Below, piece after piece: positions 38,684 to 63,943 of a stretch of 64,000 bases of DNA; the first letter of the stretch is position 1, and the number at the start of each line of letters is the position of its first letter. The notes beneath the pieces are model-generated. The model had not been told where the DNA came from and did not search any database. It saw only the letters and a list, made by a program, of their open reading frames with translations. The stretch is from contig NZ_JADEXG010000015.1 of the NCBI RefSeq assembly GCF_015207255.1, forward strand, positions 1-64,000. Reading direction: 5' to 3'. The position numbers and the translations under genes are program-made. The DNA is from Vasconcelosia minhoensis LEGE 07310 (GTDB lineage: Bacteria > Cyanobacteriota > Cyanobacteriia > Phormidesmidales > Phormidesmidaceae).

Positions 38684-39469
38684 CTATCCTATCTCAGCCA
38701 TCAATGCAGGCTGATCGGTTAAAGCGGCAAGAGACTGGATCAGGGTCTGTAGAAAAGGCTGGGGCTGATGGTGCAAAAAGAAATGATTGCCCTGAAATAT
38801 CTTCAGGTCAAAGCAGCCGCTGGTATGGTCGCGCCAGCCCGCTAGGTCTAAACTGCTCACGGCGTTGTCCTGCTGGCCGGCATAGACGCTAATCGGACAG
38901 TCCAGCGGCCGATCTGGAACATAGATATAGGTTTCCAGCAGGGTGAAATCTGCCCTCAGGCTGGGGAGAAAGAGTTCCAGAATGCTACGGTCTTGCTGGA
39001 TGGAGGCTGGAATGGCTTCGTAGCGGCGGTTGAGCTCGGTGATAAAGGCTTGCTCCGGCAGCGGATGAATGTGGGGCGTTGCAATCGGGATCTGAGGAGC
39101 GGGGCAGCTACAGCAAAAGAGCTGCATTGGCCCCGGTGGCTGCCGCTGTCGCAGCGCTCTCGCTACCTCAAAACCGAGAACAGCACCCATGCTGTGGCCC
39201 AGGAAAGCAAAAGGTATATTCAGACAGGGCTCCAACGCCTGAGTTAGCACCGGTAGCAATTGTGCTAAACGAACATAGGGATTTTCCGCAATCCGCTTGC
39301 CTCGACCTGGCAGATGAATGACGCAGAGCTCCACCCCGGCAGGCAACAGCGTAGCCCAGCGGCTGTAGGCAGACACCATCCCGCCTGCACAGGGAAAGCA
39401 GAACAGCCTCAATCGAGCTTCTGGTCTTGGCTTAGGACACACTATCCAACTGGCGGCTCCCTGGGTCAT
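38684..39469 (-). CDS. Type II thioesterase of the PKS/NRPS locus
   Basis: A 261-residue stand-alone thioesterase. The alpha/beta hydrolase motifs are LRLFCFPCAGGMVSAYSRWA at the start, the nucleophile in FAFLGHSMGAVLGFEVARAL near residue 90, an Asp in YAGQQDNAV near 200, and the catalytic His in FQGNHFFLHH near 228. Such enzymes clear stalled or wrong acyl groups from carrier proteins. ATG 39469 has GAAGG nine bases before it and is preferred over ATG 39475 and a TTG. It reads in the same direction as the PKS genes but is separated from them by about 6 kb of other genes, so it may have its own promoter. Confidence 0.92.
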   Translation of the reverse strand: MTQGAASWIVCPKPRPEARLRLFCFPCAGGMVSAYSRWATLLPAGVELCVIHLPGRGKRIAENPYVRLAQLLPVLTQALEPCLNIPFAFLGHSMGAVLGFEVARALRQRQPPGPMQLFCCSCPAPQIPIATPHIHPLPEQAFITELNRRYEAIPASIQQDRSILELFLPSLRADFTLLETYIYVPDRPLDCPISVYAGQQDNAVSSLDLAGWRDHTSGCFDLKIFQGNHFFLHHQPQPFLQTLIQSLAALTDQPALMAEIG

Positions 39470-39593
39470 ATTCATCAACCTTCACATTCTTAGGTAGTAA
39501 ATAGACAATCCTCTAAGGGATGATCTAGTTATGCAATTCAAAACATATTTGAAGTCTACATAGCTGCTTTTGCTGCTTCCATGTATTCTGATC

Positions 39594-43855: not shown

Positions 43856-44581
43856 TTAGCGATGCCCTTTGACCAAGACAATCGCTAGGGTCAAATACCA
43901 AAAGTTAAGCAGTGTAGTGCTAATAAAGACAGCTGATTCAAACAAGCTTATGCCTGAATCACCTAGCAAACTGAGCAGCCACGCGATCGCAACTACAATA
44001 CCAAACCCGCTAAGCCAAATAGGCAGCTGCCGAGAGCGCAAAACTGCGAGCGATAATAGCCCGACCCAAAGAGCGGTGAACATTTGAACACCGATATACT
44101 CACCGACCTTGCCAGCATAGAGGTTAAACGTATCGTATAGAAGTGAGATAGTCTCCTGAAGTGCTGGTGAATTGTCTGATACAACGTAACGATTAGCCAA
44201 GTATGGCATTAAAAAGAGCCAGCGTATAATTCCCAGGCTTTTCATAGCGCCGCTTATGATGCCAAAGGCAGTTGCGCTCAGTAAAAGTGGGTTCTGCTTG
44301 AGACCAAAATAGCAGTGCAAAACGATTGCAAGTGGTACTAGCAAAATTGCTGATAGAAGGTAGCTATAGTAGCCAAAAACAACGGAGCCCTGATGGGCAA
44401 CCAATCGTGGTAATACAACAGAAGCTGGCTCATCTAAGCTAGCGGGCCAATCGATAGCCTGACCTAGAACCACAAACGCGGTCATAAAGAAAACAATTTC
44501 TAGAACCAGCAGAACGGAAGCAATTTGAGGAAGGTTATTGACGCCAGTCATCACCTGTTTTTGCGAAAAACTTGTGTTCAT
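43856..44581 (-). CDS. Multi-pass membrane protein, DUF4386-like
   Basis: A 241-residue integral membrane protein with about seven hydrophobic helices, for example IASVLLVLEIVFFMTAFVVL, YYSYLLSAILLVPLAIVLHC and FGIVVAIAWLLSLLGDSGIS. The spacing recalls DUF4386 proteins, whose function is unknown. ATG 44581 is preferred to a TTG three codons upstream. It follows the MFS gene by 83 bp on the same strand and may be in its transcript. It has no recognised enzymatic motif. Confidence 0.68.
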   Translation of the reverse strand: MNTSFSQKQVMTGVNNLPQIASVLLVLEIVFFMTAFVVLGQAIDWPASLDEPASVVLPRLVAHQGSVVFGYYSYLLSAILLVPLAIVLHCYFGLKQNPLLLSATAFGIISGAMKSLGIIRWLFLMPYLANRYVVSDNSPALQETISLLYDTFNLYAGKVGEYIGVQMFTALWVGLLSLAVLRSRQLPIWLSGFGIVVAIAWLLSLLGDSGISLFESAVFISTTLLNFWYLTLAIVLVKGHR

Positions 44582-44664
44582 AGCTTTCAAAGAGAATCCA
44601 TCATTGACGATTAAAGTATAACTGCGATTTGGAATGTGAATTCTATTTTTTGGTCTGGCTTTGT

Positions 44665-45810
44665 CTATCGTTTCTCAAAAAACAATAGACAGAAAGCTAG
44701 GATCAGGAATGTGAATAGGATAGGCGCAAACAAATAGCGGTTGCCCAAATAGTGCATCGAAATCGCCGATAGGATCGGACCTGCTGTACAGCCAACGCTA
44801 TAGGCAGCCGTGAATAGGCTACTTCCCGAAGGCAGATCGCGATTCGCAATTTGGCCGCCAATAATTGCTAGGGCCAGAGGAAAAATTGGGCTCATGGCTG
44901 CACCCGTAGCAAAAGCGATTAAATATACTACTGGGATGGTATCAACAAAAGATAATCCCAAAATAGAGAAAATAATTACACTTATGCTTACCTTAAGGAG
45001 ATGAAGTTTGCCTAAACGATCGGCTAGATAGGTAACAGGCAGGGTTGCCAGCAGCCCACCTAAAATAAATGCGCTAAAGGTATAGCCAATTTGGGAAATG
45101 GGGTATCCTTGCCGCAGTAAGTAAACTGGATAAAGTGATACCAAAGTAGCAATGGCCACTCCATAGGAAAAAGCGCCCTGTAGAGGTAATTTTATCCGTT
45201 TATAGACACCCAAGCGTAAGGGCTGAAAGCGAATTTTTTTCTCTGGCAGGCCAAATAAGATGAATAAGACGCCGCTTAAGATCAGTAAGCTGCCTAGGCT
45301 GAATGTAATCTTTGGGGAGTAATCGTAGGCTATAGCGCCAATCAGCGGACCTAGACCAAACCCTAAACTGAACGAGAGGGCATCAATCCCGTTGACTATG
45401 GCACGATTGCTGTCTGTGCAAAAGTAGTTAATTGCGGTTTGTCCCGAAACCAGGTACAAACAGACTGCACCGCCCATTACCGCTCGCAGGATGAACCATA
45501 GCAACAAGTCATCTGTCCATGGAAACAAAGGAGCTGTTGCAGCCATAAGAGTAAAGCCAGCGATCATCGTTTTGCGTAGCCCAAAATGTTGAAGCAGTTT
45601 AGCAACAATGGGAGTGCCGATGGCAATTGTCAAAAAATAAAGTGTTGAGTTTGCACCTATCCAAAGGTCTGAAATCCCCTGCTGAGCCATTAGTGTTGAA
45701 ATAAACGGATTGAATAAGCCGAGCGAAATTCCTGACAGGAAAGCAACAGCATAGAGAGCGGGTAAACCGCTTGAAAAGGGAGATGTAGAAGAGGAAGCTA
45801 TTCTTTGCAT
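44665..45810 (-). CDS. MFS transporter, probable exporter of the PKS/NRPS product
   Basis: A 381-residue major facilitator protein with about 11-12 hydrophobic helices. N-terminal ALYAVAFLSGISLGLFNPFI, the loop motif region LLQHFGLRKTMIAGFTLMAA and the helix GAVCLYLVSGQTAINYF are typical of drug/proton antiporter-like MFS proteins. A central loop KKIRFQPLRLGVYKRIKLP separates the halves. It begins 12 bp after the NRPS stop on the same strand, so it belongs to the biosynthetic operon and probably exports the product or confers self-resistance. Confidence 0.88.
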   Translation of the reverse strand: MQRIASSSTSPFSSGLPALYAVAFLSGISLGLFNPFISTLMAQQGISDLWIGANSTLYFLTIAIGTPIVAKLLQHFGLRKTMIAGFTLMAATAPLFPWTDDLLLWFILRAVMGGAVCLYLVSGQTAINYFCTDSNRAIVNGIDALSFSLGFGLGPLIGAIAYDYSPKITFSLGSLLILSGVLFILFGLPEKKIRFQPLRLGVYKRIKLPLQGAFSYGVAIATLVSLYPVYLLRQGYPISQIGYTFSAFILGGLLATLPVTYLADRLGKLHLLKVSISVIIFSILGLSFVDTIPVVYLIAFATGAAMSPIFPLALAIIGGQIANRDLPSGSSLFTAAYSVGCTAGPILSAISMHYLGNRYLFAPILFTFLILAFCLLFFEKR

Positions 45811-45822
45811 AATAATTAAGAG

Positions 45823-48750
45823 CTAGGGACTGGAGGCTGATTTGATAGATTTCAAGAGCAGGTTCTGCATCTGGTCAACATATTGCCGGGCAAGCTGTTG
45901 AATGGTATCTGCGCGATAGAAATTTCGTGAATATTCGATTTCTAGTTCCATCACGCCTTCGCTGATTGAGAAAAAGAATTCCAGCAGGGTAGTGCGCTTT
46001 TGTTCCGGCAGGGCTAAACGGCGATCGCGGTCGGCTTGGATAAACTCAAAGACCTCAGAGCCGGGGAGGGAGCGATTGCCCAGATAGTTTGCCCTGACCG
46101 GGGTAAGCTTTTCATCGGGGTAGAGATGGTCGGGCAGCAGTTCCCCAATCCAGTCGTAGGTGACGCCATTCATGGGCAGAGCGGCAAACTGCTGCCCAAT
46201 TTGGGCAACTAAGGTCTGCCAATGATCGCCGGAACTCACCTGGAGACCCACTGGAAAATTGACGGCGAAGTTACCGAAGCTCTGCCAGAATACCTGACCC
46301 TGGCCCAGGTCTCGGCCATGACTGCGATGGCTGACCACAATCCATTCTTTTTTTGACCAGTCAGCAAGCAGCTGGTAAAGAGGCGCAAGCAATAGCCAAT
46401 AGACATTGCACCGATAGCGCTGCTTGGCGTCCTGAAGTAAGCGATTCGTTTCAGCCGGCGTTAGCTGAATCTGCTCGCTCGCGGTAGAGGCTTCGATATT
46501 TGCCCCTTTGACATAGTCGAACGGGGGTTGAAAGGCGGATGCCTCGGAGGGAAACTGGGCCTGCCAATAGTCGATGTGGCTGTTCAATTCGCCCTGCTGC
46601 TCAGCGGTCTGCAGCCGTTGGATGTAGCTGAGATAGTTCGCCGATACCGTCCCATCAGGAGCCGGACCCTCCGACAGCAGCCGATCGTAGGTTTGCCAGA
46701 GATCGCGAAATAGGACGCTGCCCGCCAGCAAATCGGCAATCATGTGGTGGGCTACTAAGGTAATGTCGTAGCAGGTTTCATGCACCTTGACGACGACTAA
46801 CGCAAACAGGGGCCACCGATCTAGGCGCAGCTGCTGAAGGGTCTGTTGAATTTTGAATTCGACGTAGCGATCGCGATCTTCGGGTGCAAAGCAGCTACCG
46901 TCGCAGAGGGCAATCTCTAAGGGCGGCGGCTGGAGCAGCTGCTGCCGCCATTGGCCATCCTGCATTTCAAACACCATGCGCAGAGCCGAATGTCGAGCAA
47001 TCACCTGGTTGAAGGCCAGACTGAATCGGCCCATATCCAGCGCCTTTTGGTAGCGAAATCGGCTACAGCCTGCCCACTGGTAGGGCGGGTCAAAGTAGGT
47101 GACAATCCAGCGCTGAGCCGGGGCCAGCGGAAAGGATGTAGCGGCTGACGGCGCATCCGCTATGACAGGCTGAGGGGCGACAGGCTGAGGGGCTAGCAGC
47201 GCTTTGCGATCGAGCTTGCCGTTGTGATTTTTGGGCAGCCCAGGCAGCCACTCGATCCGCTGGGGAATCATATAGTGGGGCAGCTTCTCAGCCAGAAACT
47301 GTTTCAGCTCTCGGGCGGCGATGGTTTGGCCCGCAAGCCAGGCAACCAGACGCTTTTGCCCAGCTTCATAATCCATCGCGAGGACAGCGGCTTCCTGAAC
47401 GGCAGGATGGAGGATGAGCGCATTTTCAATCTCGCCTAGCTCTACCCGGAAGCCGCGAATTTTTACCTGGTGGTCGATTCGACCGTGATATTCAAAGTTG
47501 CCGTCGGGCAGTTCTTTCGCCAGGTCACCAGAGCGGTAAAGGGTCTCGCCCGGAATGTCGGCAAACGGGTTGGGCTGAAACGTAGACGCCGTGCGTTCGG
47601 GGTCTTTAAGATAGCCCTTCGCCAGCTGCACGCCGCCGATCCAGAGTTCGCCCAGCTCACCGGGCGGCACTGGCTGCATCTGCGCGTCTAAGATGCGGAT
47701 ATAGACATTGTCAATGGCTTTGCCAATGGGGATACTGCGCTCTGGCCGAGATTCGATCAGGTGAGCCGTGACATCGATTGAGGCTTCGGTCGGACCGTAA
47801 AGATTAGCCAGACCCGTCTTTAATCCATGGCGATCGATCCACTGTCGAATAAAGTCGGCGGGCAGCGCTTCGCCGCTAAAGATCAGCCAGCGCAGGTCAG
47901 GAAAGCGCCAGGACTGGTTCGCTAGGGCATTGATGAACTCGCCAAACAGTGAAGGCACAAAATGCATCACCTGAATGCGCTGGGTCTGCATCCATCGAGC
48001 GAACTCCCAGGGGTTGAGGACGATTTCTCTCGCTACCGGACAGATGCTTGCCCCTTCCATCAGGGTCCAGAAGAGTTCCCAGACCGAAATGTCAAAGCAA
48101 AAAGAGGTTTTCTGCGCCACGCGATCGCCCGGTCGCAGCTGAAAAGTTTTCTGCATCCAGTCCAGTCGGTTCATATAGCCCCGGTGGCTGAGCATCACCC
48201 CCTTGGGCCGCCCGGTCGAGCCTGAGGTGTATAGAACGGTCATCAGATCGTCTGGATTAGGCTCAATCGCTGGTCCCGTATCAGCACTTTTAGACCAGAT
48301 TTCTGGAAAGATTTGCGCGATCGCGCCTGCAAGCTCAAGGGGAGTTCCTATATCCAGAAATAACAGCTGTTGCAGGGACAGCGGTGGCACCAGACAGGTG
48401 GACAACGCAGCCGCAACCTCTTGCTCGCTCAGCAGAATTTGAATCTCGGCATGGTCAAGAATGTAGCGAATGCGCTCAGCCGGGTAGTCCGGGTCTAAAG
48501 GTACATATGCCCCACCCGCCTTGAGAATGCCCAGGATGCCAATCACCATCAGCGGGCCGCGCTGGGTCATGATGCCGACCCGCGAGTTGGGCTCGACGCC
48601 CTGGCTGCGCAGGTAGTGAGCCACCTGGTTGGAGCGGCGGTCGAGCTGGGCATAGGTTACATGCTGACTGTTTTGTAAGACCGCGATCGCGTCGGGGGTC
48701 TGTTGGGCCTGCTCAACGATCTTCAGGTAGGGAACTTCAAGTCTTGACAT
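45823..48750 (-). CDS. NRPS: serine-activating adenylation domain plus C-terminal condensation domain
   Basis: A 975-residue protein with architecture A-C and no carrier domain. The A domain (about 10-520) has all core motifs: LYTSGSTGRPKG, FDISVWELFW, NLYGPTEAS, YRSGDLAKELPDG, RIDHQVKIRGFRVELGEIE and NGKLDRKAL. Aligned by eye to GrsA/EntF positions, the pocket is D-I-W-H-I-S-L-I-D(-K), which matches the serine code. The C domain (about 545-960) has HHMIAD near 669, so the catalytic His is present. With no PCP in cis, the A domain must charge another protein's carrier, most simply the PCP that ends the preceding PKS protein. The last C domain could release the product. It is between that PKS gene (95 bp) and the MFS gene (12 bp). 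Confidence 0.93.
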   Translation of the reverse strand: MSRLEVPYLKIVEQAQQTPDAIAVLQNSQHVTYAQLDRRSNQVAHYLRSQGVEPNSRVGIMTQRGPLMVIGILGILKAGGAYVPLDPDYPAERIRYILDHAEIQILLSEQEVAAALSTCLVPPLSLQQLLFLDIGTPLELAGAIAQIFPEIWSKSADTGPAIEPNPDDLMTVLYTSGSTGRPKGVMLSHRGYMNRLDWMQKTFQLRPGDRVAQKTSFCFDISVWELFWTLMEGASICPVAREIVLNPWEFARWMQTQRIQVMHFVPSLFGEFINALANQSWRFPDLRWLIFSGEALPADFIRQWIDRHGLKTGLANLYGPTEASIDVTAHLIESRPERSIPIGKAIDNVYIRILDAQMQPVPPGELGELWIGGVQLAKGYLKDPERTASTFQPNPFADIPGETLYRSGDLAKELPDGNFEYHGRIDHQVKIRGFRVELGEIENALILHPAVQEAAVLAMDYEAGQKRLVAWLAGQTIAARELKQFLAEKLPHYMIPQRIEWLPGLPKNHNGKLDRKALLAPQPVAPQPVIADAPSAATSFPLAPAQRWIVTYFDPPYQWAGCSRFRYQKALDMGRFSLAFNQVIARHSALRMVFEMQDGQWRQQLLQPPPLEIALCDGSCFAPEDRDRYVEFKIQQTLQQLRLDRWPLFALVVVKVHETCYDITLVAHHMIADLLAGSVLFRDLWQTYDRLLSEGPAPDGTVSANYLSYIQRLQTAEQQGELNSHIDYWQAQFPSEASAFQPPFDYVKGANIEASTASEQIQLTPAETNRLLQDAKQRYRCNVYWLLLAPLYQLLADWSKKEWIVVSHRSHGRDLGQGQVFWQSFGNFAVNFPVGLQVSSGDHWQTLVAQIGQQFAALPMNGVTYDWIGELLPDHLYPDEKLTPVRANYLGNRSLPGSEVFEFIQADRDRRLALPEQKRTTLLEFFFSISEGVMELEIEYSRNFYRADTIQQLARQYVDQMQNLLLKSIKSASSP

Positions 48751-48806
48751 GGGTCTTTATCTCAGTAAATAAATTTAATTCGCTAGCCGCTCGGAGCGCC
48801 CCCCAG

Positions 48807-48822
48807 CCCCCAATTCTGGGGG
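48807..48822. repeat. CCCCCA-ATTC-TGGGGG hairpin between PKS and NRPS genes
   Basis: A perfect 6-bp stem (48807-48812 and 48817-48822) with an ATTC loop, within AGCCCCCAATTCTGGGGGAG. It resembles a short palindrome dispersed between cyanobacterial genes. It lies in the 95-bp spacer of an operon, where it might modulate read-through or mRNA stability. No T run follows. Confidence 0.5.
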
Positions 48823-48845
48823 AGCCCGGAGACTGGCTTCCTCTT

Positions 48846-51800
48846 TTAACCCACTACAGCCGTTGTTGCCTGTAGACTCTGCCCCATCTCTTGCAAACTG
48901 CGACAGCTGAGCAGTGCTTTACGATTGACAGAACCCCACTGTTTCTCTAGCTGGGTGACGATACGGATGCGCTCAAGCGAATCGAATCCCAGGTCGGCTT
49001 CTAAATCGAGATTCAGATCTTGCAAGCCGATCGGCGTATGACAAATGTCGGCGGCTACCTGTTGTAGGAGGGCAGCAATCTCCCCGTCAATCGGTTCTTC
49101 CATCTGGGGGGCTACGGTCGGCGGGCTGACCTCTGCCAGAGCCCTAAGCTCGGCCTGGTAGGCCTGCATCAGCTGATCGATAGACGCGGCGGCGAAGAAG
49201 CTGCTGTCATAGCTGGCAAACAGATGCAGCCGATCGTCAAAAATCTCCTGTAAAACATCGAGAATACCCGCCGCGTTGATGCCCCCCGCCTGATAGTCGG
49301 TTACGCTGAGCGGCCCGTACTGAGTTTGCAGCGGCAGATGTCCGGTGTAGGGAAGGTAAACATTCGACTTAATCGCCTCATGAAAAATGGAGAGGCTATA
49401 GGATGGCACTTGGCCCGACTCTAAGGGGAGATGATCGCGGAAGGTCAGCCCCATTTTGTAAGTTTGCGCCCGGTCTAGACCGCTGGTTAAGGGACCTTGA
49501 ATCGCCTGCTGTACCCGCTGTAAAAGACACTCCCAGGACTCCTCGGGCTGAACGCGCTCAAAGCTCAGGGCCAGATTCTGGGCAAAGCTGCTGACCTGCG
49601 TAGAGGCATCTACCTGAGGATAAACGCGGCCGCCAGTCGGCATTTGCAAAATCATCTGGGCGCTTTCGCGATCGCACTGACTCAGCGCCCGCAGAAAAGC
49701 GCCGGTCAGCAACGTATTCAACGGCAGCCGCCATTCCCGGGTTCGCGCGATCAGCTGCGTCGTAATCCGGCGGTCGAGCTGATAGGGCTGGCTGTGATAC
49801 TGCGGCAGGGCAAAGCGAAAGGGCTGGCTGTCGGGATTCCAAGAGTAGGTGGTCTGTCCCTGCTGATGGATATACTCGTTCAGGGCCTGGTTCGCGCTTG
49901 GCTCGGGTGCGGCGTTCATGGCGGTGACCGTAGCGGCATAGTCCGCTAGGCTTGTGGCCTCAGGCAGGTCAGGCACTTGCCCCTGACAGCGAGCGTGATA
50001 CAGTTCCAAGAATTCGTGCAGAATAATGTGATTGCCCAGGCCGTCGGAGATGATGTGCTCATTGCCTAAAAAGAGCTGATAAACAGAGTCCTGGAGCTGC
50101 ATCACCGAGAACTCGTGCAGCGGCCACTGGGTCAACGACCAGGCGTAGTTGAGACAGCGCTGACGTTCTTCTACCAGAGAACTGGCCTGGGCTTCTGGAC
50201 TGAGCGGACGCAGATCGGTAAAGGCAATCTCTGGCAGCGACGGCTGGGTTAATACCTCCAGACGGAAGTCGCGGAAGCGCTCGGCCTGGGGCGGGATGTG
50301 GAAGCGCGATCGCAGCATCGGATGGCGCTCAATCAGGTCCTGCCAGCTCTGCTGAGCAATCTCTAGGTCAAATGGGCCTTCTAGCCGTACGGTGGCAAAT
50401 AGACTGTTGGAATTGACTAGCCAGTGACCAATCAGGTGAAAGTACTGGCCGTGCAAAAGCTCGACGGGCTGGGCGTCTGTTGTCTCGATCGAAGTCTCGA
50501 TTATAGGTGACAGTGAAGCTGGTAAGGGTTCTGGCTCAGACTGCCCCTGCCAGGGTTCCAACAGCTCAATCACCGCCTGCAAATGGGGTAGCTGGAGCAG
50601 GTCACGTAAGGAAACCTCTTGCTGGAAAGCCTGCTGGGCTGCGGTGGGAATCAGCTTCATCAGACCGTTCATCAGCTGCGTCAGCATGATTGAATCGAGA
50701 CCTAGTTCACCTTCCAAGGTTTGGGTTAATCCAATCTGCGACGGCTGTAACCCGGTGATTTTTGCTGTAAGTGACAAAACGCGCTGTTCTAGGTCCTGGG
50801 CTTCCAAATCGGTCGAATTGTCTGTGGTGGCTTGGCTCAGCAGCTCAGCGGCAGACGTGGCCTCAGCCGGTAAACGGGTAGGCAGCTCGACCCAAAACCG
50901 CTGGCGCTGGAACGGATAGGTCGGCAGGGATAACCGCTGGCGTGGATAGTCCCGGTCAAATCCGCGCCAGTCAATCTCGACTCCCTGAGTATTTAGAACC
51001 GCAGCACTCTCCAGTAGGGTTGTCCAATCTGGCTGTCCGCTACGCAGAGACGGGAGCCAGCTGCCGGCCAGACCGAGATGGTTGTTTCCCTGATTGATTA
51101 AGTTAGGGTCAGGACCCACTTCAACAAAGATCTGACAGCCCTGTCGCTGGAGGGTTTCCATGGCGACTTCGAGGGACGCTGACGACTGTAGCTGCTGGCT
51201 CCAATATTGACGCTGAGAGAATTCTTGATCACTGGCAATCTGGCCGGTGAGACTCGATACTAACCCTCGCTGAAGCGGACGGTAGCCGATCTCGGCGGCG
51301 CGGCGCTCAAAAGCGAGCATTGCCTCAGCAGCGTTCTCGGCGGACTGCTGCATTAACTGGCCCCGCTCGGCTGCTAGCAGAAGCCCTGCTTCTAGGCTGT
51401 AAAGCCCGGCAGCACAGGCAGCGGCATATTCACCCACGCCCTGGCCAAAGACCCAGTCGGGCTGGACCCCCCAGGACTGCCAGAGCTGGGAAAGGGCGTA
51501 CTCCACTGCGAACAGAGCGGGCTGAGCGTAGGCCGGTTGATCAATTAGCCGAGCCTGCTCTGGCGAGGTGGGATAGAGAATGGCTAAGAGGGGGATGGAG
51601 AGGCGCGATCGCAAAATCTCCTCACAGTCCAACAGTACCTGTCTAAAGGTGGGCTGGCTCGCATAGAGCTGACGGCCCTGCTGGACCAGCTGTGAGCCTT
51701 CCCCAGTGAACAGAAACGCGACCTTAGGCAGCTGGGATTCTGTCCCACACCAAAGCTCTGGACTGGCCTGACCGGCGCTGAAGTCGGCAAGCTGCTGGCT

Positions 51801-53414
51801 GAGCTGTTCTGCGGAGCTGGCAACCGCGCTGAGCCGATGCTTAAACCGGGCTCGGGTGGTATTGGCTGTAAAGCAGAGGTCGGCCAGGTTTGTATCTGTA
51901 TGGGTGAGCAGGTAGAGCTCATAGCGGCTGGCGAGCTGCCGCAGGGCGGTTTCACTTTTTGCAGAAAGGGTCAGCAGATGCAGCGGTCGATCGACTTCAG
52001 CCGCAGCTAGGGGCTGGGAAGTCGCCTCTTCGACCACGATATGAGCGTTGGTACCGCTGACGCCAAAACCGCTGAGGCCAGCCCGGCGCGGCTGATTGTC
52101 AGCTGGCCAGGGGGTGAGCTGAGTGGGAATAGCAATCGGCAGCCGCGCCCAGGGAATATGAGGGTTTGGCTGGTTAAAGTTCAGGTGGGGAGGGAGGGTC
52201 TGATGCTGGAGCGAGAGCACTAGCTTAATGAGGCCAGCGATCCCAGCGGCTGATTCCAGATGGCCTAGGTTAGTCTTGGCAGCGCCGACAAAAAGCGGCT
52301 GTTCTGTCGATCGATTCCGGCAAAGTTCCGCCGCTAAAGCTTCAATCTCGATTGGGTCGCCCAGAGCCGTACCGGTGCCGTGGGCTTCAACATAGCTGAT
52401 CTGCTCTGCCTGCACGCCACTGTTGGCCAGCGCCTGACGAATCACAGCCTGCTGGGCCGGACCGTTGGGCACCGTCAGGCCGCTGCTGGGGCCGTCCTGA
52501 TTGACGGCAGAACCGCGAATTAGAGCTAAGATGGGGTCGCCCTGCGCGATCGCGTCGCTCAGACGCTTCAGCACCACCAGCCCGCAGCCTTCACCCCGGG
52601 CAAAGCCATCGGCCTCAGCATCAAAGGTTTTGCAGCGGCCGTCTCGGGCTAGCATCCGCGCCCGACTAGTGGCCACGAACCCATCCGGCGATAGAGCCAG
52701 ATTCACCCCGCCCGCCAGCGCCAGATCGCATTCCCGTTGGCGCAGGCTCTGGCAGGCCAGATGCACCGTCACCAGCGAAGACGAGCAGGCCGTATCCACC
52801 GCCATACTCGGCCCTTGCAACCCTAGCGTATAGGACAGCCGCCCCGCCGCCGCGTTCAGATGATTGCCGGTGGTGCTGTAGGCGTCGATTGCCGTCAGGT
52901 CGCCTGCCCGCGTTTGCAGCTGCAAGTAGTCGTTAACGGTAATGCCGATGAAGACGCCGGTACGGCTGCCGCGCAGCTTTTCCGGCTGGAGTCCGGCATG
53001 TTCAATCGCTTCCCAGCCGACTTCGAGCAGCAGCCGCTGCTGCGGGTCGAGATGGATGGCTTCGCGCGGCGGAATGCCGAAGAAAGCCGCGTCAAACTGG
53101 TCTACGTTACGCAGGAAGCCGCCCTTAGAAACATATAGCTTGCCCGGCTGATCGGGGTCATCCGAGTAGAGGTTTGCCAAATCCCAGCCGCGCTCAGCCG
53201 GGACCCCCGTTGTCGCATCTATTCCACGGCGCAGCAGCGACCAAAACATTTCGGGGCTGTTGACGTTGCCGGGAAACCGACAGCCCATCCCAACTACTGC
53301 GAGCGGTTCGGTCTGTGCCTGCTCCAGGGACGTAAGCTTGGCCCTGAGCTCTCGCATGGCTATCAGCGCACTCTTCAGCCGCTCTTTTTGATCGCTGGAC
53401 GGGGAGGTATTCAT
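48846..53414 (-). CDS. Hybrid PKS/NRPS: KS-AT*-ACP-C-PCP (AT decayed)
   Basis: A 1522-residue megasynthase. KS (about 37-465) has the Cys in VDTACSSSLV, EAHGTGTALG and AKTNLGHLES. The AT region (about 565-800) is degenerate: FTGEGSQ replaces FTGQGSQ, GQGVGE replaces GHSxGE (the nucleophile Ser is lost), and the segment with the HAFH motif is deleted. ACP (about 870-950) keeps its Ser in ELGLDSIML near 906. The condensation domain (about 985-1420) has EHIISDG near 1121, keeping the catalytic second His. PCP (about 1440-1515) has LGFDSLERI near 1476. No A domain is present. Without KR/DH the third extension should stay a beta-ketone. The C domain then needs an aminoacyl-PCP charged by the A domain of the next protein. 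Confidence 0.93.
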   Translation of the reverse strand: MNTSPSSDQKERLKSALIAMRELRAKLTSLEQAQTEPLAVVGMGCRFPGNVNSPEMFWSLLRRGIDATTGVPAERGWDLANLYSDDPDQPGKLYVSKGGFLRNVDQFDAAFFGIPPREAIHLDPQQRLLLEVGWEAIEHAGLQPEKLRGSRTGVFIGITVNDYLQLQTRAGDLTAIDAYSTTGNHLNAAAGRLSYTLGLQGPSMAVDTACSSSLVTVHLACQSLRQRECDLALAGGVNLALSPDGFVATSRARMLARDGRCKTFDAEADGFARGEGCGLVVLKRLSDAIAQGDPILALIRGSAVNQDGPSSGLTVPNGPAQQAVIRQALANSGVQAEQISYVEAHGTGTALGDPIEIEALAAELCRNRSTEQPLFVGAAKTNLGHLESAAGIAGLIKLVLSLQHQTLPPHLNFNQPNPHIPWARLPIAIPTQLTPWPADNQPRRAGLSGFGVSGTNAHIVVEEATSQPLAAAEVDRPLHLLTLSAKSETALRQLASRYELYLLTHTDTNLADLCFTANTTRARFKHRLSAVASSAEQLSQQLADFSAGQASPELWCGTESQLPKVAFLFTGEGSQLVQQGRQLYASQPTFRQVLLDCEEILRSRLSIPLLAILYPTSPEQARLIDQPAYAQPALFAVEYALSQLWQSWGVQPDWVFGQGVGEYAAACAAGLYSLEAGLLLAAERGQLMQQSAENAAEAMLAFERRAAEIGYRPLQRGLVSSLTGQIASDQEFSQRQYWSQQLQSSASLEVAMETLQRQGCQIFVEVGPDPNLINQGNNHLGLAGSWLPSLRSGQPDWTTLLESAAVLNTQGVEIDWRGFDRDYPRQRLSLPTYPFQRQRFWVELPTRLPAEATSAAELLSQATTDNSTDLEAQDLEQRVLSLTAKITGLQPSQIGLTQTLEGELGLDSIMLTQLMNGLMKLIPTAAQQAFQQEVSLRDLLQLPHLQAVIELLEPWQGQSEPEPLPASLSPIIETSIETTDAQPVELLHGQYFHLIGHWLVNSNSLFATVRLEGPFDLEIAQQSWQDLIERHPMLRSRFHIPPQAERFRDFRLEVLTQPSLPEIAFTDLRPLSPEAQASSLVEERQRCLNYAWSLTQWPLHEFSVMQLQDSVYQLFLGNEHIISDGLGNHIILHEFLELYHARCQGQVPDLPEATSLADYAATVTAMNAAPEPSANQALNEYIHQQGQTTYSWNPDSQPFRFALPQYHSQPYQLDRRITTQLIARTREWRLPLNTLLTGAFLRALSQCDRESAQMILQMPTGGRVYPQVDASTQVSSFAQNLALSFERVQPEESWECLLQRVQQAIQGPLTSGLDRAQTYKMGLTFRDHLPLESGQVPSYSLSIFHEAIKSNVYLPYTGHLPLQTQYGPLSVTDYQAGGINAAGILDVLQEIFDDRLHLFASYDSSFFAAASIDQLMQAYQAELRALAEVSPPTVAPQMEEPIDGEIAALLQQVAADICHTPIGLQDLNLDLEADLGFDSLERIRIVTQLEKQWGSVNRKALLSCRSLQEMGQSLQATTAVVG

Positions 53415-53490: not shown

Positions 53491-56400
53491 TTAGGGAGAA
53501 CCGACAGCCGCTAGCTCCTGGTCTAACAGCGCGGCCAGATCGTCTTCGGAAAGGGCTTCCAGTTCGGTAGCAGGCTCGGGAACTTCAGCTGCTGCGGCAG
53601 ATTCAACTGGCTCAATTTCAAGCACTGCTTGAGCCAGATAGTCTGCCAGCGTCTCGAGATTGGGATAGTTAAATGCCAGCGTAGAGCTCAGGGTTTTTCC
53701 CAGTCCGGCTTCTAACCGACCTTTCAGATCGACCGCCATCAGTGAGTCCAGACCCAGCTCGGTGAAACCCTGGCGTAGGCTGAGAGTTTCTGTCGGAGGC
53801 AGCCCGAGAACCTGGGCGACCTCTGCCTTGAGATAGGCAATCAGGTAGGCTTTACGCTGGGCCTGCGGTGTCGTGGTAAGACCTGCCAAAAAGTCTGAGG
53901 GGCCATGGTCGGATTGCTTTAGCTCGGCAGCTGGGGTGCCGAGATCGGCCAGCAGCGATCGCGCTCCTTTAATTTCATAAACTGACTTAAAGCGCGACCA
54001 GTCAACCCGAGCAGCGGTGATTTGGGCGGTTGCCTGGGACATCAGCATTCCCAGCAAATCCAGGGCGGTCTGGGGCTGCCAGGTCTCTATCCCAACCCGC
54101 TTGAGCAAAGCTTGAATCTCGTCAGAAGCCATACCGCCCTCAGCCCAGGGTCCCCAGTTGATGCTGAGCGCGGGCAGTCCTAGAGCGTGGCGGTGATGCG
54201 CGATCGCGTCCAAAAAGGCATTGCCAGCCGCATAGTGGCCCTGGCCAAAGGAACCCCAAATTGAAGCAATCGAAGAGAAACAAACAAACTGTTCCAGCGG
54301 CATTTTCTGAGATAGCTGCCGAGAGAGCTGATGCAGGTACCAGGTTCCCAACAGCTTAGGCCGCATGATGGTCTGTAGCTCAGCCTGGCTCATCTCAGCC
54401 AGCGGCTGTTCGGCCACCAGGCCCGCCGCGTGAAAAATGCCCTTCAGCGGCTGTGCCGAGCCTTGTAGCTGGGCAAAGGCCGCCGTCATCTGCTCCCAAT
54501 TGCTGACATCGGCCTGCAATACTTCAACCTGGGCACCTTTCGCTTCCAGGGCCTGAACCGCCTGCACGCGCTGAGCAACTTTGCTGTCAGCAGGTAGGTT
54601 CGGCCACTGCGATCGCGTCGGTAGCGCCGTCCGACCCAGCAGAGTCAGATGGGTAGCGCCCTGTTCAACCAGCCAGTGGGCCAGGCTCAGTCCCAGGCTG
54701 CCAAAGCCGCCGGTAATCAGATAGCGACTGTCGTTTTTGGGCTTAAAGGGAACCACGGCAGACCGTTGGGTAGGTGCCAGGCGAGCGGTATAGATTTGGC
54801 GATCGCGAACCGCTAAATAGTCTTCTGCCGCAGCAGTTTGCATTAGCCGCAGTACGATATCGGCCTGGGCCATTGGTGAGTTATCAGCGGGGTCCAGGTC
54901 AATTAGCCCGCCCCACAGCTCTGGGTGCTCCAGCGGTAGCACCCGACCTAGACCCCACAGAGGAGCCTGAGCCAGGGCGACAGGCCGTTCAGAAAGGGCT
55001 TGGGCTCCCTGAGTGGCTAGCCAAAGCCGAGGCGTTGCCGCCTGCTGCCGGACGGCCTGCACTAGCTGTAGGACACTGCCGCTGCCCAGTCGCTGAGCCG
55101 CTTCCATATCAGCCCAACTTTCTTCGGTCAGGTCTAAACTCCACAGATGAACGATGCCCTGACAGGGTTGGGCTGCCAGCAGCGACCGCAGCTGAGTCGA
55201 AAAGATCTCGGGCTCAGCCGGATTGAGCACTTGGCCAACCGTCTGAGGGGAGCGATAGGCATAGACGAGTTCGCAGGTTGTTCCCGGTTCGCTAAGGCGC
55301 TGGGCTAGGGCCTGACCGACGCCCTGCTGATCGGCAAAGATCAGCCAGTGGCCTGCTGTGGACTGATTTTCTGCTGCTTCAAATTCTGTTGGAACAATCT
55401 GCCACTGCACCTCGTAAAGTGCATCTGAGGCTGCGATTGGGCTGGAGAGTTCAGTAGGAGACTGGACTGGGGACTGAGCTGCCCAACGGGAATTTTCCGA
55501 CTTGACCCAGTAGCGGCTGCGCTGAAAGGGATAAGTTGGTAGGCTCACCCGCGATCGCGGAGTTGGCTCGACGGCTGCCCAGCGAATTGGGGTGCCCTGG
55601 GTCCAAAGCATGCCTAAGCTGGTGAGCATCTGCGTCCAGTCCGGCTGGCCCCGGCGCAGGGAAGGTAGCCAGGTACCGCTGCCCGGCGTCCGGCACTGTC
55701 GCCCCATCCCCAGCAGCACCGGATGCGGTCCCACTTCTAAGAACAGCTCGTAGCCCTGGTCGGCCAGCGTCTGCATAGCTTTGGCAAAATTGACGGAATG
55801 GCGCACCTGGCGTCGCCAGTAGTTGGGCTGGGTGACCTCATGGGTCACTATTTCGCCTGTGACGCTAGAAACGATTGGTACCTTAGGCGGCCTCAGAGCA
55901 ATGGCGGCGGCCTGCTGCTGAAACGCTGCCAGCATCGGCGTCATCAGCGGCGAATGAAACGCATGGGAGACATGTAGAGGGTGAACGTCGATGCCGTCCG
56001 CCTCAAGCTGTCTGAGCACTGACTGTACCGATTCTCCGACACCCGAGATAACCGTATTTTGAGGGCCGTTGATCGCCGCGATCGCAACCGCATCGCCATA
56101 GGGCGCGATTGCCTTGCTGACCTGTTCATAGCTCGCAATCACCGCCGCCATCTGCCCTCCAGCGGGTAGCGCCTGCATCAGGCGTCCGCGTTCGACAATC
56201 AGCTTCAGCCCGTCTTCCAGGCTATAAACTCCGGCCACACAGGCCGCCACATATTCACCAATGCTGTGGCCCAGCACAATATCTGGTTTCACGCCCCAGG
56301 ATCGCCACAGCTCAGAAAGGGCATACTCAATGGCAAAGAGAGCAGGCTGCGTATAGGCCGTCTGGTTGAGCGGCGAATGCCCTGTGGGTGGATAAATCAC

Positions 56401-58212
56401 ATCAAGAATGGACTGACCCAGCAGAGGTTGCAAAATGCGATCGCACTGTTCCAGCGTCTCTCGGAAAACCGGCTGAGTTTCGGAGAGCTGTCGCCCCATA
56501 TTCAGCGACTGAGAGCCCTGGCCGGTGAACAAAAAGGCGATTTTTGGCCGACCGGTTTCGGCGATTTGACGACAGACAATCGAAGGTGCTTGGGGAAATG
56601 CCTCCAGCTGTTGGCGTAGACCCTCGGCTGAATCTGCCACTGCTGCCAGGCGATGGTCATAGGCCGTGCGCCCCGTATTAGCCGTATAGCAAATATCTGC
56701 TAGGGATTGTTCTGGATGGGCCGACAGATGATGAACATAGGACTGCACTAGCTCGTTCAGGGCAGCTTCACTTTTGGCAGAGAGCGTCAGCAGCTGACTC
56801 TCGCGATCACAGGCAACCGGCTTCGGTTCGGGGGCTGCCTCCACTAGAAGATGGGCGTTGGTACCGCTAAACCCGAAGGAGCTCAGCCCGGCGATGTGCT
56901 TGTCATGCAGCGGCTGCCAGGGCGTGGGCTGGGTAGGAATCTGGATCGGCAGCTGCTCCCAGGGAATGTGAGGATTGGGAGTCTCAAAGTTGAGATGGGG
57001 AGGAATCTCCAGATGTTGCAGGGAAAGCACCAGCTTGATCAGTCCGGCGACGCCTGCCGCCGATTCCAAATGGCCGAAGTTGGTCTTCACCGACCCGACG
57101 ATTAGCGGGCGATCGGCAGGGCGATTGGCCCCAAACACCGCCCCTAAAGCTCTGAGCTCAATCGGGTCGCCGAGGGCAGTGCCGGTGCCGTGGGCCTCTA
57201 CGTAGCTCACCTCTTCGGGTTTTACGCCGCCATTCTCTAAAGCCCGGCGAATCACCGTCTGTTGAGAGGGGCCGTTTGGCACGGTCAGGCCGCCGCTGCG
57301 ACCGTCCTGATTCACCGCTGAGCCACGAATCACCGCCAGTATCCGGTCCCCATCGGCCTCAGCATCGCTTAGTCGCTTCAGCATCACCACGCCGCAGCCT
57401 TCGCCTCGGGCATAGCCATCGGCCTGGGCATCAAAAGTTTTGCAATGACCATCGGGGGCCAGCATTCGGGCCTGACATTCGTTGATGGTGCCGACCGGTG
57501 TGAGAATCAGATTGACCCCGGCTGCCATGGCCAGGTTACATTCTCGCGATCGCAAACTCTGACAGGCCAGATGTACCGACACCAGGGACGAAGAGCAGGC
57601 GGTATCGACCGCCATGCAGGGACCCTGAAAGCCAAAGGTATAGGCCAGCCGACCGGCGGTGACGCTAAAGGCATTCCCTGTCGCGGTGTGCGGGTCGATC
57701 AGGCTGAGCTCGGTGGCCAGCTGGAAGTAGTCCAGGTTCATAATCCCGACAAACAGGCCGGTCTGACTGTTGATCAGGCTTTGAGGCACGTAGCCCGCCT
57801 GCTCCAACGCTTCCCAGCCCACCTCCAGCAGCAGCCGCTGCTGGGGATCCATGCTGACTGCCTCGCGGGGAGAGATGCCAAAGAACAGCGGATCGAACTG
57901 GTCCACCTGGTCTAAATAGCCCCCGGCTCTGGCATACAGCTTTCCTGGCGTACCCGGTTCGGGATGGTAGACCTGAACCATCGACCAGCGGTCGTCAGGC
58001 GTTTGCCCAATCGCGTCAGTGCCGCTGTGCAACAGCTGCCAGAACTCGTCTAGCGTATTGCTCCCCGGGAAGCGACAGCCCATGCCGACAATGGCGATCG
58101 GTTCGACGCGATCGCGTTCGCTGGCCTCTAGCTTTGCCTGCATATCCTTGAGCGCAAGCAGGGCACGTTTAGTCGGGGAGAGGGCGGTTTTGGGGTCCTC
58201 AGTATGGCTCAT
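53491..58212 (-). CDS. PKS: KS-AT-KR-ACP with the only intact AT
   Basis: A 1573-residue type I PKS module. KS (about 37-460) has TACSSS near 206, EAHGTGTALG and VKTNFGHLES. AT (about 560-850) is complete: FTGQGSQ, GHSIGEY near 649 and HAFHSP near 751, the malonyl-CoA type signature. KR (about 1165-1380) has the NADPH motif GGFGSLG and Tyr in GHYAAGN near 1326; it lacks LDD and has a Trp eight residues before the Tyr, which marks an A-type ketoreductase (L-hydroxyl). ACP (about 1450-1530) has LGLDSLMAV near 1488. There is no DH or ER, so it should leave a beta-hydroxyl. It is in an operon with PKS genes on both sides. Confidence 0.95.
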   Translation of the reverse strand: MSHTEDPKTALSPTKRALLALKDMQAKLEASERDRVEPIAIVGMGCRFPGSNTLDEFWQLLHSGTDAIGQTPDDRWSMVQVYHPEPGTPGKLYARAGGYLDQVDQFDPLFFGISPREAVSMDPQQRLLLEVGWEALEQAGYVPQSLINSQTGLFVGIMNLDYFQLATELSLIDPHTATGNAFSVTAGRLAYTFGFQGPCMAVDTACSSSLVSVHLACQSLRSRECNLAMAAGVNLILTPVGTINECQARMLAPDGHCKTFDAQADGYARGEGCGVVMLKRLSDAEADGDRILAVIRGSAVNQDGRSGGLTVPNGPSQQTVIRRALENGGVKPEEVSYVEAHGTGTALGDPIELRALGAVFGANRPADRPLIVGSVKTNFGHLESAAGVAGLIKLVLSLQHLEIPPHLNFETPNPHIPWEQLPIQIPTQPTPWQPLHDKHIAGLSSFGFSGTNAHLLVEAAPEPKPVACDRESQLLTLSAKSEAALNELVQSYVHHLSAHPEQSLADICYTANTGRTAYDHRLAAVADSAEGLRQQLEAFPQAPSIVCRQIAETGRPKIAFLFTGQGSQSLNMGRQLSETQPVFRETLEQCDRILQPLLGQSILDVIYPPTGHSPLNQTAYTQPALFAIEYALSELWRSWGVKPDIVLGHSIGEYVAACVAGVYSLEDGLKLIVERGRLMQALPAGGQMAAVIASYEQVSKAIAPYGDAVAIAAINGPQNTVISGVGESVQSVLRQLEADGIDVHPLHVSHAFHSPLMTPMLAAFQQQAAAIALRPPKVPIVSSVTGEIVTHEVTQPNYWRRQVRHSVNFAKAMQTLADQGYELFLEVGPHPVLLGMGRQCRTPGSGTWLPSLRRGQPDWTQMLTSLGMLWTQGTPIRWAAVEPTPRSRVSLPTYPFQRSRYWVKSENSRWAAQSPVQSPTELSSPIAASDALYEVQWQIVPTEFEAAENQSTAGHWLIFADQQGVGQALAQRLSEPGTTCELVYAYRSPQTVGQVLNPAEPEIFSTQLRSLLAAQPCQGIVHLWSLDLTEESWADMEAAQRLGSGSVLQLVQAVRQQAATPRLWLATQGAQALSERPVALAQAPLWGLGRVLPLEHPELWGGLIDLDPADNSPMAQADIVLRLMQTAAAEDYLAVRDRQIYTARLAPTQRSAVVPFKPKNDSRYLITGGFGSLGLSLAHWLVEQGATHLTLLGRTALPTRSQWPNLPADSKVAQRVQAVQALEAKGAQVEVLQADVSNWEQMTAAFAQLQGSAQPLKGIFHAAGLVAEQPLAEMSQAELQTIMRPKLLGTWYLHQLSRQLSQKMPLEQFVCFSSIASIWGSFGQGHYAAGNAFLDAIAHHRHALGLPALSINWGPWAEGGMASDEIQALLKRVGIETWQPQTALDLLGMLMSQATAQITAARVDWSRFKSVYEIKGARSLLADLGTPAAELKQSDHGPSDFLAGLTTTPQAQRKAYLIAYLKAEVAQVLGLPPTETLSLRQGFTELGLDSLMAVDLKGRLEAGLGKTLSSTLAFNYPNLETLADYLAQAVLEIEPVESAAAAEVPEPATELEALSEDDLAALLDQELAAVGSP

Positions 58213-58252: not shown

Positions 58253-61200
58253 TTAATAGCGGATGGCTTCTAGCGCGCTCAAAAGAAGAGATTCAGCCTC
58301 TTTTTCAGAAAGCGTTTCGACAGATTCACTCGACACCCCGATGGGCTGGGGGATTGGTGCTGAAACCGTCGGTGGGCTGGCAGCAGGTTCCTCCTCAGCC
58401 GGGAACAGCGTTTGCACTAGGTGGCCGCCCAGCGCATCCAGGGTGGGATAGTCAAACACCAGGGTGGAGGCTAGCGGCTGCCCTAAAGACTTTTGCAGAG
58501 TGTTGCGCAGCTCCACCGAAGTAAGCGAATCCATCCCCAGGTCAAAGAAACCCTGATGCAGGTCAAAGGAATAGGTCGGACTTAGCCTCAGTAGGGTTCT
58601 AAGCTGATCCTGGAGGTATTCAAACAGTCCGGCAGCGCGTTCATCTGCGGGCAGTGCTGCTAGCTGAGTGACAATTTCTGCGGCCGAGCTAGTATCGGTT
58701 TCTTCAGCAGTCACCAACTCTGACAGCAGCGGCGGCAGGGCTGGAGCCTGGGTCACAAACTGTTCCCACCGCACCGGCACCACGCCTACCTGGGCGGCGG
58801 GCTGCTGGAGCAGCTGATCTAGGGCCTGGAAGCCAGATTCGGGCGCGATCGCGTCCAGCCCCAGAGCCATCAGCCGCTGCTGTTCGCGTTCGCCCAGCCG
58901 GTCGGCCATACCACCGTCGGCCCAGCTGCCCCAGTTGACGCTGAGGCCGGGCAGCCCGCGCCCTTGGCGGTAGTGGGCTAGGCTGTCTAGAAAGCTGTTG
59001 GCCGCCGCGTAGTTGGCCTGGCCGGGGGAGCCCAGCATCGCCGCCACCGAGGAGAACAACATAAAGTGATCCAGGGAGAGATCCTGGGTGAGCTGGTGCA
59101 GATTCCAGGCCCCGGCGACTTTGGGAGCCATGACCCGATCGAACCGGATGGGGGTTTGCTGAATCAGCAGACCGTCATCAAGCAGTCCGGCAGCGTGGAA
59201 GATGCCCCGCAGGGGCGGCAGCGTGGCCTGAATTTCGGTCAGCACCCGAGCCAGGTCGCCCATGCGGGTGACGTCGCCCTGCAGGACGCGCACTGTAGGG
59301 TTGGGGTAGTCGGGGAGGACAGCAGTTTTGGGATCGCGGCGGCTGACCAGCACCAGATGCTTGGCTCCCTGGTCGATTAGGTGCTGGGTCAGCTGCTGGC
59401 CCAGACTGCCCAGCCCGCCCGTAATCAGATAGGTGGCGTTGGCCTTCAGGGCCAGCGGTGGGGACTGCTGGAGGGTAGTGCGGGTTAGGCGCGCGACCTG
59501 GCGCTGCTGACGGAATGCGATCGCGTCTCCCATCGGCGCTTGCAAATCCGACAGCAGCTGCTCGGCTTCTTGGGGTTGAGGGTCTGCGGCCAGGTCAATT
59601 AGGCCGCCCCAAATTTCCGGCTGCTCCAGGGCAATCGCCCGTCCCAGTCCCCAGAGCGGAGCCGCACCCACCTGGGCGACAGATGTCTCGACGGCCTGGG
59701 TGCCCCGGGTCACAAACCAGAGCTTACCGCCTACCGCGCCGAGGGATTCTGCCAGGCCCTGAGTCAGCATCAGGCCGGTCTTTACACCAACTGTCTGGGC
59801 GGTTTGCAGGGCGTCTGAGCTGCCTTCCTGGGGGATGTCTGCGCCCCAGAAATGAACGACGCCGCGCAGGGGCTCTCCTTGGCAAATCACCGCTTCACAC
59901 AGCTGCTGCCAGTCCTCAGAACGCTGGGGATTGATCTGCCAAGCTGAGCCCGTCAGCTGCAAAGTCTCCCCGACGCTGACCTGAGTGCAGGTATTGCCCT
60001 GCTGAACCAGCTGGCGGGCCAGACCGGCGGCGACACCGCCTCGATCGGCGAGCAAAAGCCATTGTCCGGTGCCATGACTGGCCGCTGCTTCGCGGCTGGC
60101 GACCGGCTGGGGCCGCCAGGCCACGCGGTAGAGCCAGTCCTGCCAGGCCGGGCGGGCCAGCTGCCGTAGCGCATCCCGCTGAATGCGTCTGACCTGGAGA
60201 TCTTGCAAGCGGGCCAGGCACTGTCCGGCCTGGTCGAATATATGCAGGTCGGCCCGGCGAATCGGCTGCCCGGCTTCGGCGGAATGAATTTTGCCGTGAA
60301 TCCAAATCGGCGATCGCACCGGCTGAAGCAGCTGGAGCTGGCCCACGCCGACCGGCAGGTAGGTCTCCTCACCGTCATCGGGCAGCGTCGCGAACAGCAG
60401 CTGAAAACCGGCATCCATCAGCACCGGATGGAGCTGATAGGCGTCTGCCGTATTGGCTGGGACGACTTCGGGTAGCTGTACCCGGGCCAGGGCCTGATTC
60501 CCCTGTCGCCAGAGCTGCTGGAGTCCCTGGAAGCTGTCGCCGTACTCCAGACCGCGCGATCGCAGCTGCTGATAGTAGGCTTGGCAATCCACCGACTCCG
60601 TACAGCCAGCCTGGGCCGCTGCCAAGGTCAGGGCTGGCGTTACTGCGGCAGCTGGGGCCAGGGTTCCAGCCGCGTGCTGCACCCAGTCTGTCTGGGATTC
60701 TGACGAAGCATCAGCGCTGACAATCCGAAACTCACCGGTCGGGGAAACAATCATTTGCACCTGCCGCCTGTCCGACTCGGGCAGCACCATCGCCGCTTGA
60801 ATCGAGACAGCTTTCAGGCAGCGCCCCGGGGTCTGGGCCGCTGCCGCTAGCGCCATTTCTAGAAAAGCCGCTCCCGGTAGAACGGCAAGCCCGCTGACCC
60901 GATGGCCACCGAGCCAGGGCTGCTGCGCCAGGCTGAGCTGCGCGGTAAAGACGGTGTCCTCAATCGCCAGCGGCACCGGCTGACCGATGAGAGGATGTCC
61001 TGGATTGGTTACAACTTTCGCCTTGGCTGTTTTCTCGACCCAGTAGCGATCTCGCTGCCAGGGAAACAGCGGCAGCGGCAGCACCCGGCAGCCCGGTGAG
61101 AACAGTCCTGCCCAGTGGATCGGCTGACCTTGCGTATAGAGCCGACCAAGAGCGGCCAGTAAAGTCGCTCGCTCAGGCTGGTCTGGCCGCAGGGAGTCCG

Positions 61201-63355: not shown

Positions 63356-63673
63356 GGGAGATTTTGCACAAGGGTGGGTAAGGGGAGTATGGGAGTGATG
63401 GGGTGTTGGGGTAAGGGAGTGAGTTTTAGGCAAAAGTAGATAAGTAGATCATCCTAATCATTTGTAGGACTATGTCATGCTGAGCATTGCGCTAGCGCAG
63501 CCATGCCCCTTGGGCTATAGCATTTCACGGGAGCCTTTACATATCAAGAGATTCCTCGGCTTCGTTGCTCCTCTGGAGCCGCTTCGCGAACGGAATGACA
63601 TCCTTGGGCTTAATTGTGCCGACCTACTTAGGTTATTTCGCAGATTTAGAGAATCACGCGAAATGACAAACTT
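63356..63673. repeat. 318-bp spacer with dispersed-repeat-like sequence
   Basis: Between the ACP gene and the first PKS gene. The left part is G-rich spacer repeat (GGTGGGTAAGGGGAGTATGG, GATGGGGTGTTGGGGTAAGG). The right part has a GCGCTAGCGC palindrome and TCAAGAGATTCCTCGGCTTC ... GCGAACGGAATGACATC, a form common in dispersed bacterial intergenic repeats. No CDS is supported. It may hold a promoter for the PKS operon, but none is clear. Confidence 0.5.
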
Positions 63674-63943
63674 TTAAGCCTGAGTTTCTTCGGCCAGACG
63701 CTCGGCTAGTTCGGCAATGGTGGGATAGTTAAAGATTAAAACCGGGTTGAACTCGTAACCCAGCCAGGTTTCTAACTGACCCAACATGCCCATCGCCTGG
63801 GCGGAGTCTAGGTCGTAGTTGTCAAAGGGTTCGTGGATGTCGATCTCGTCGGCGTCGTAGTCGAGACGCTGGGCCATTTGGGCGATCAGCCAGTCTTGAA
63901 TGGCTTCGGCGGAGTGGGATTGAGTGGTTTTAGTGGGATTCAT
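63674..63943 (-). CDS. Stand-alone acyl carrier protein (FAAL-partner type)
   Basis: An 89-residue acyl carrier protein. The phosphopantetheine Ser lies in YDLDSAQAMGMLGQLE near residue 47, and the rest is a typical four-helix ACP (WLGYEFNPVLIFNYPTIAEL). The DSAQA context and the LGYEF...IFNYPTIAEL end recall ACPs paired with fatty acyl-AMP ligases at the start of cyanobacterial lipopeptide or polyketide lines. It should carry the acyl starter to the first KS. The gene is upstream of the PKS operon on the same strand. A ligase gene would be expected further upstream, beyond the window edge. Confidence 0.88.
   Translation of the reverse strand: MNPTKTTQSHSAEAIQDWLIAQMAQRLDYDADEIDIHEPFDNYDLDSAQAMGMLGQLETWLGYEFNPVLIFNYPTIAELAERLAEETQA

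Follow-up and report, generated by a model that had tools for sequence, protein, structure and literature searches.

Several described systems share parts of the architecture reported here. The cyanobacterial 'clade II' clusters, which are PUFA-synthase-like/PKS/NRPS hybrids, have been published but are uncharacterised, with their product unknown, and their pfaA is divided between two genes that flank one for a Rossmann-type protein (PMC13291983). Canonical NRPS modules with the order C-A-T-E, such as those of the gramicidin S and tyrocidine synthetases, contain the same four kinds of domains as the module studied here, with C placed ahead of the loading parts and E behind them. Streptothricin biosynthesis employs a C-PCP protein (ORF18) whose A domain is encoded separately as a stand-alone protein (ORF19) (PMC11546977). 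Finally, there are assembly lines ending without a TE in a C-superfamily release domain, i.e. fungal CT domains and the hydrolysing CT domain of IvoA (PMC11546977).

The window that we analyzed is a stretch of 64,000 nucleotides, bases 1-64000 of a 90.9-kb contig of Vasconcelosia minhoensis LEGE 07310, and the operon of interest runs on past its end. By gene content and order, this cluster fits the clade II group. As in clade II, the cluster has a fused pfaBC, a pfaD, a single NRPS module, and, like some Nostoc and Scytonema clusters, three PKS modules; its pfaA appears to be split as well, around an additional protein (PMC13291983). The pfa-like genes lie directly beside the PKS-NRPS genes, at positions 63997-76949 of the contig, and encode PfaD, a large KS/AT/FabA-type DH protein, a KR-DH protein (contig 70553-72319), a 263-aa protein (contig 72362-73153), and a KS-AT-ACP protein (contig 73044-76949). 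The last three (contig 70553-76949) fit the split pfaA of clade II, although the 263-aa protein has no Pfam match. On the other hand, the C-T // A-E* order presented below, an epimerization (E)-family terminal domain, and FAAL-type sister clusters are absent from the main text of that report, and two dead AT domains in the window are a further difference (PMC13291983).

The NRPS module is distributed over two genes, both on the minus strand. PKS3 (48846..53414, 1522 aa), as defined by its open reading frame and Pfam, has the order KS-degenerate AT-ACP1-C1-ACP2. Pfam detects the KS, a truncated AT, two PP-binding stretches, and a Condensation domain at residues 1005-1305, with no AMP-binding domain in the protein. 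ACP1 (50550..50810, minus strand, motif LGLDSI) is the donor carrier for C1 (49110..50462, minus strand), a divergent condensation domain, which is followed by ACP2 (48849..49094, minus strand, motif LGFDSLER), the proposed serine carrier. The next gene (45823..48750, 975 aa) encodes a protein that we name A-E*, which consists of an A domain (47176..48750, minus strand) and an E-family domain, E* (45826..47160, minus strand). Its Pfam matches are AMP-binding (E=1e-91), AMP-binding_C, and Condensation (PF00668, E=5e-46), and no PP-binding domain is found in it. The spacing between the NGKLDR motif (residues 510-515) and the next domain, which starts at about residue 539, is only ∼24 residues, too few for a PCP to be hidden there. 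The module thus has the order C-T-A-E*, broken between T and A, instead of the canonical C-A-T-E. An earlier note on this DNA had claimed just this arrangement, a PKS protein ending in ACP-C-carrier without an A domain, followed by a gene for a complete A domain without a carrier, in the unusual order C-carrier // A-last domain, and it was correct on these points. In contrast to canonical C-A-T-E modules, the carrier precedes the A domain and is of the ACP type, E* lacks the Glu of the EGHGR motif, and there is no downstream C domain or TE. Unlike in the streptothricin system, the C-carrier unit is fused to a PKS and the A protein ends with an E-like domain (PMC11546977). We see no evident docking domain where PKS3 and A-E* are separated. 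The 95-base gap between the two genes (48751-48845) contains a GC-rich palindrome-like stretch, CCCCCAATTCTGGGGG, which occurs once in the contig.

The pocket code of the A domain was read as D-I-W-H-I-S-L-I-D, which is close to the serine reference DVWHLSLID. The code is D-I-W-H-[IVM]-S-L-I-D in all 28 copies (the window and 27 others), with variation limited to the fifth residue, which supports the serine specificity that the earlier note had read from it. The closest solved relatives of the domain are ordinary NRPS A domains, serine-loading EntF among them. Genome-wide domain searches were performed on the assembly, which is rated 100% complete. A single A domain scores over the amino-acid cut-off (435 bits, with the runner-up at 165 bits), and there are exactly two PF00668 domains, encoded by the PKS3 and A-E* genes. 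The 165-bit domain belongs to another megasynthase elsewhere in the genome (open frame of 2785 aa; G000:C95, about 6812-8071), in which a KS follows it and which is possibly an olefin synthase. A second A-PCP protein that would complete a normal module is therefore ruled out, none being present in the whole genome, and a PCP hidden in the A protein is ruled out by Pfam and the spacing given above. These were the two findings that, according to the earlier note, would have spoken against charging in trans.

To place this module in a wider context, we searched for orthologues of C1-ACP2. Within the family of the window, only its own genome out of 63 has this stretch. In another family (f28, to which G421 belongs), 26 of 217 genomes possess it. 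Mapping the domains of the fetched regions provided 27 other systems with the module. Ten are split and 17 have the order ACP1-C1-ACP2-A-E*, on one polypeptide in 16 cases and with a frame broken inside C1 in the remaining one (G586). In PUFA-type clusters, PKS3 and A-E* are separate genes, as in the window; both genes were read in 10 such systems, where A-E* adjoins PKS3 in each and the gene order is that of the window in eight. The non-split systems are of the FAAL type in every case in which the beginning of the cluster was read. ACP2 is situated between C1 and A in all modules read whole, with no carrier after A, so that the carrier-before-A order is kept in the 27 other modules. In one split system (G595), ACP2 is doubled. 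This is a stable and widely shared exception to the C-A-T order, and its natural fused and split forms are direct material for studying, or engineering, the recognition of a carrier by an A domain in trans.

By a Rosetta-stone argument, the fused order ACP1-C1-ACP2-A-E* implies that the A domain serves ACP2. Together with the findings that the genome encodes no further amino-acid A domain and that the A protein itself bears no carrier, this strongly suggests that in V. minhoensis the A domain of A-E* charges ACP2 of PKS3 with serine in trans, as the earlier note had proposed. That it instead serves another carrier, ACP0 or one elsewhere in the genome, is very improbable. ACP0 (63674..63943, minus strand) is indeed free-standing and ACP2 is ACP-like, but homologues of ACP0 are fused to FAAL as a starter carrier in several FAAL-type clusters, which makes it an unlikely serine carrier, and the position of A directly behind ACP2 in the fused proteins and the tandem ACP2 of G595 also argue against this possibility.

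Besides the apparent lack of a docking domain, several observations count against this reading of the module. The first concerns ACP2, which the earlier note had labelled a PCP. Using carrier profiles built from 21 PCPs, 19 PKS ACPs, and 3 Pfa ACPs, all from fetched loci, we found that ACP2 of the window (DLEADLGFDSLER, with an LGxDSLE motif) scores 31 bits against the Pfa ACP profile, 15 against the PKS ACP, and 13 against the PCP. None of the 29 orthologous ACP2s scores best against the PCP profile. ACP2 is thus an ACP-type carrier, for which the term PCP should be dropped, and its sequence does not make it obvious that an NRPS A domain would recognize it. Second, C1 is a very divergent condensation domain (tree branch of 2.66). 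Its motif, EHIISDG in the window, has Glu in place of the first His of HHxxxDG; most orthologues show EHxxSD. This too counts against the reading, though three orthologues keep NHHxxSDG. Third, one PUFA-type system (G443a; L065, G443:C12:1-11727) contains PKS3, but the 11.7 kb behind this gene lack A-E*. A fused system is present elsewhere in the same genome (C57).

Next, the relationship between the split and fused forms was assessed phylogenetically. The split systems form a clade both in the C1-ACP2 tree (support 96/95) and in the A-domain tree (98/100). When outgroup A domains are included, the split clade falls inside the fused systems, though at a poorly supported deciding fork (89/77), which makes a single fission of a fused ancestral gene no more than possible. 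The unrooted A-E* tree unites the fused systems in a single group (100/100), the remainder being the split ones, and midpoint rooting of this tree does not recover the split systems as one group, a point against our reading of the module. Beyond these genomes, a genome contig collection contained one distant match to related loci and viral contigs none; among the matches listed for plasmid records there were only ordinary NRPSs, with about 33-35% identity.

The earlier note had described the last domain of A-E* as an extra condensation domain with an HHMIAD motif. The motif is there, at residues 668-673, but the domain belongs elsewhere. Its best matches of solved structure are E domains (from PvdL and the tyrocidine, gramicidin S, and bacitracin synthetases), with 88-110 bits for single-E chains compared with 42 bits or less for C domains outside PvdL. 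It also matches NCBIfam TIGR01720, below its cut-off, and the E signature EGHGR is found in six of the eight genome matches nearest to it once the orthologues are set aside. In the tree, E* joins E domains (97/94), apart from C domains. Tree and solved-structure scores rule out an LCL, starter, or offloading C domain. Judged by these relationships, the last domain is an epimerization-family domain, in which the Glu of EGHGR is replaced, and not an ordinary C domain. For the same reason, it differs from fungal CT domains and that of IvoA, which are CT domains (PMC11546977).

We aligned twelve diverse E* copies with nine E domains. The two His and the Asp of HHxxxD (H668, H669, and D673) are kept in all twelve copies. 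The Glu of EGHGR, present in 9/9 E domains, is Arg (R809) in 12/12 E* copies, and the preceding residue is a new His (H808), invariant in the aligned set. The GR of HGR and the NYLG motif are also kept, whereas GWFT has become GNFA and the Asp after NYLG is Asn. In five pairs, dN/dS over E* is 0.11-0.19, indicative of purifying selection (0.07-0.14 for C1 and 0.05-0.12 for A). E* is present in all 28 modules read, and in three fused ACP1-C1-ACP2-A-E* proteins (L090 (G434), L123:4661-10384, and L128:11021-16762) an SDR lies C-terminal to it. An AlphaFold2 model of E* alone was unusable (pLDDT 34). Because of the low dN/dS and motif conservation, E* is taken to be maintained, although probably not as a standard epimerase.

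What would such a domain act on? In none of the systems read was a KR found in the last PKS module, so a β-ketoacyl group is expected on ACP1, which C1 would convert to a β-ketoacyl-seryl thioester on ACP2. In the pathway suggested by domain order, a fatty chain assembled by the Pfa-like proteins (contig 63997-76949) would pass to ACP0 and then through PKS1, PKS2, and PKS3, whose KS would give the β-ketoacyl-ACP1. The A domain would activate l-serine and, most probably, load it on ACP2 in trans, C1 would couple the β-ketoacyl chain to the serine amine, and E* would act on β-ketoacyl-seryl-ACP2. Since it is the last domain of a line without a TE in cis, E* has most likely taken on a different role, in release, cyclization, or stereochemistry, and probably helps finish or release the product. 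The proposal in the earlier note that the last domain acts on the finished chain is plausible for acyl-serine on the carrier; by tree and sequence, what acts is not an extra condensation domain. As a whole, we put the probability at roughly three in four (about 0.77) that the line, a PUFA-synthase-like/PKS/NRPS hybrid, ends in a serine module with the order C-T-A-E*, split between T and A in the lineage of the window. One chemical core, β-ketoacyl-serine, is thus predicted for two uncharacterised types of clusters in many Nostocaceae-type genomes.

A β-ketoacyl-seryl thioester is the classical tetramate precursor, which makes its cyclization by E* attractive. Release by a Dieckmann-type cyclization, giving a 3-acyl-5-hydroxymethyl tetramic acid, is a tentative reading. 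It draws on the missing KR, which leaves the β-ketoamide required for closure, on the absence of a TE in cis after E*, on the presence of E* in every module read while no type II thioesterase was found beside the PUFA-type Nostocaceae systems read, and on the combination of an invariant HHxxxD with a lost Glu. However, no E-family Dieckmann cyclase was found in the literature, the known bacterial enzymes being thioesterase-like (PMC10956176), and the SDR after E* in three fused homologues could reduce the keto group instead. Our literature search returned nothing usable on serine tetramates from cyanobacteria, on release domains resembling E, or on unusual orders of domains.

E* might also still be an epimerase that turns acyl-l-Ser-ACP2 into its d form by means of a rearranged acid/base pair (H669 with H808 or R809), release being left to a type II thioesterase or hydrolysis. 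This seems possible but doubtful. E is the closest family, the HH and D are invariant, the new His stands beside the lost Glu, and there is a type II thioesterase gene 5 kb downstream in the window (38684..39478, minus strand), as also beside FAAL-type relatives; yet the Glu is Arg in every copy, and the GNFA and Asn changes affect the E signature further. Mutagenesis of gramicidin S synthetase has reportedly shown that this Glu matters. Homologues of the thioesterase occur in 11 orthologous regions, FAAL-type where shown, and its membership of the cluster is uncertain. An inactive remnant that scaffolds the A domain, with release by the type II thioesterase or spontaneously, is unlikely. The catalytic Glu is lost, and inactive E domains have been reported in glycopeptide synthetases (PMC1894796), but in a mere remnant one would hardly expect HHxxxD and numerous further positions to be invariant across 12 diverse copies, dN/dS to be so low, or the domain to be present in all 28 modules read. 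An E-family domain with its His motif kept and its epimerase Glu lost, in a line without a TE in cis, could represent a new route for finishing lipopeptides. That an epimerase-derived domain has been repurposed for release or ring (tetramate) formation of cyanobacterial lipid-serine products, in a carrier-before-A module common to PUFA-synthase and FAAL starter systems, is conjectural and would not be our safest expectation.

The genes upstream of the serine module complete the PKS part of the line. PKS2 (53491..58212, minus strand) is KS-AT-KR-ACP with an intact AT (GHSIGE), and PKS1 (58253..63433, minus strand) is KS-AT-DH-KR-ACP with a truncated AT (GHGLGE). The AT of PKS2 is the one intact modular AT in the window, the other two of three being dead (61256-61795 in PKS1; 50955..51734, minus strand, in PKS3, with GHSxGE changed to GQGVGE). 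Both carry two lesions, i.e. replacement of the active Ser by Gly and deletion of the catalytic-His stretch, in intact frames. For this reason, malonyl is probably supplied in trans, in a line of the cis-AT type; for PKS3 a different AT would have to provide it, the simplest candidate being the one in PKS2. PUFA-type orthologues keep GHSxGE in the AT, and G469 also has a deletion in the AT of PKS3. In the fused type examined (G421), the matching AT is degenerate too.

Several neighboring genes travel with the cluster. An MFS transporter gene (44665..45810, minus strand) has homologues in 20 orthologous regions. So does a gene at 42794-43810 for a secreted protein with a PEP-CTERM-like C terminus and no Pfam family, whose homologues (up to 56% identity) are found in PUFA-type and FAAL-type regions alike. 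A DUF4386 membrane protein (43856-44590) and an NAD-dependent epimerase-like protein (40351-41298) accompany the cluster in 16 and 8 orthologous regions, respectively. Outside the window, at contig 80898-82178, lies a gene for a flavin amine-oxidase-like protein, likely a tailoring enzyme. It shares 66-69% identity with a protein encoded in three orthologous regions, whose gene in G437 is located between PKS1 and PKS2. In V. minhoensis, the oxidase gene is followed by a PPTase gene (contig 82365-83072).
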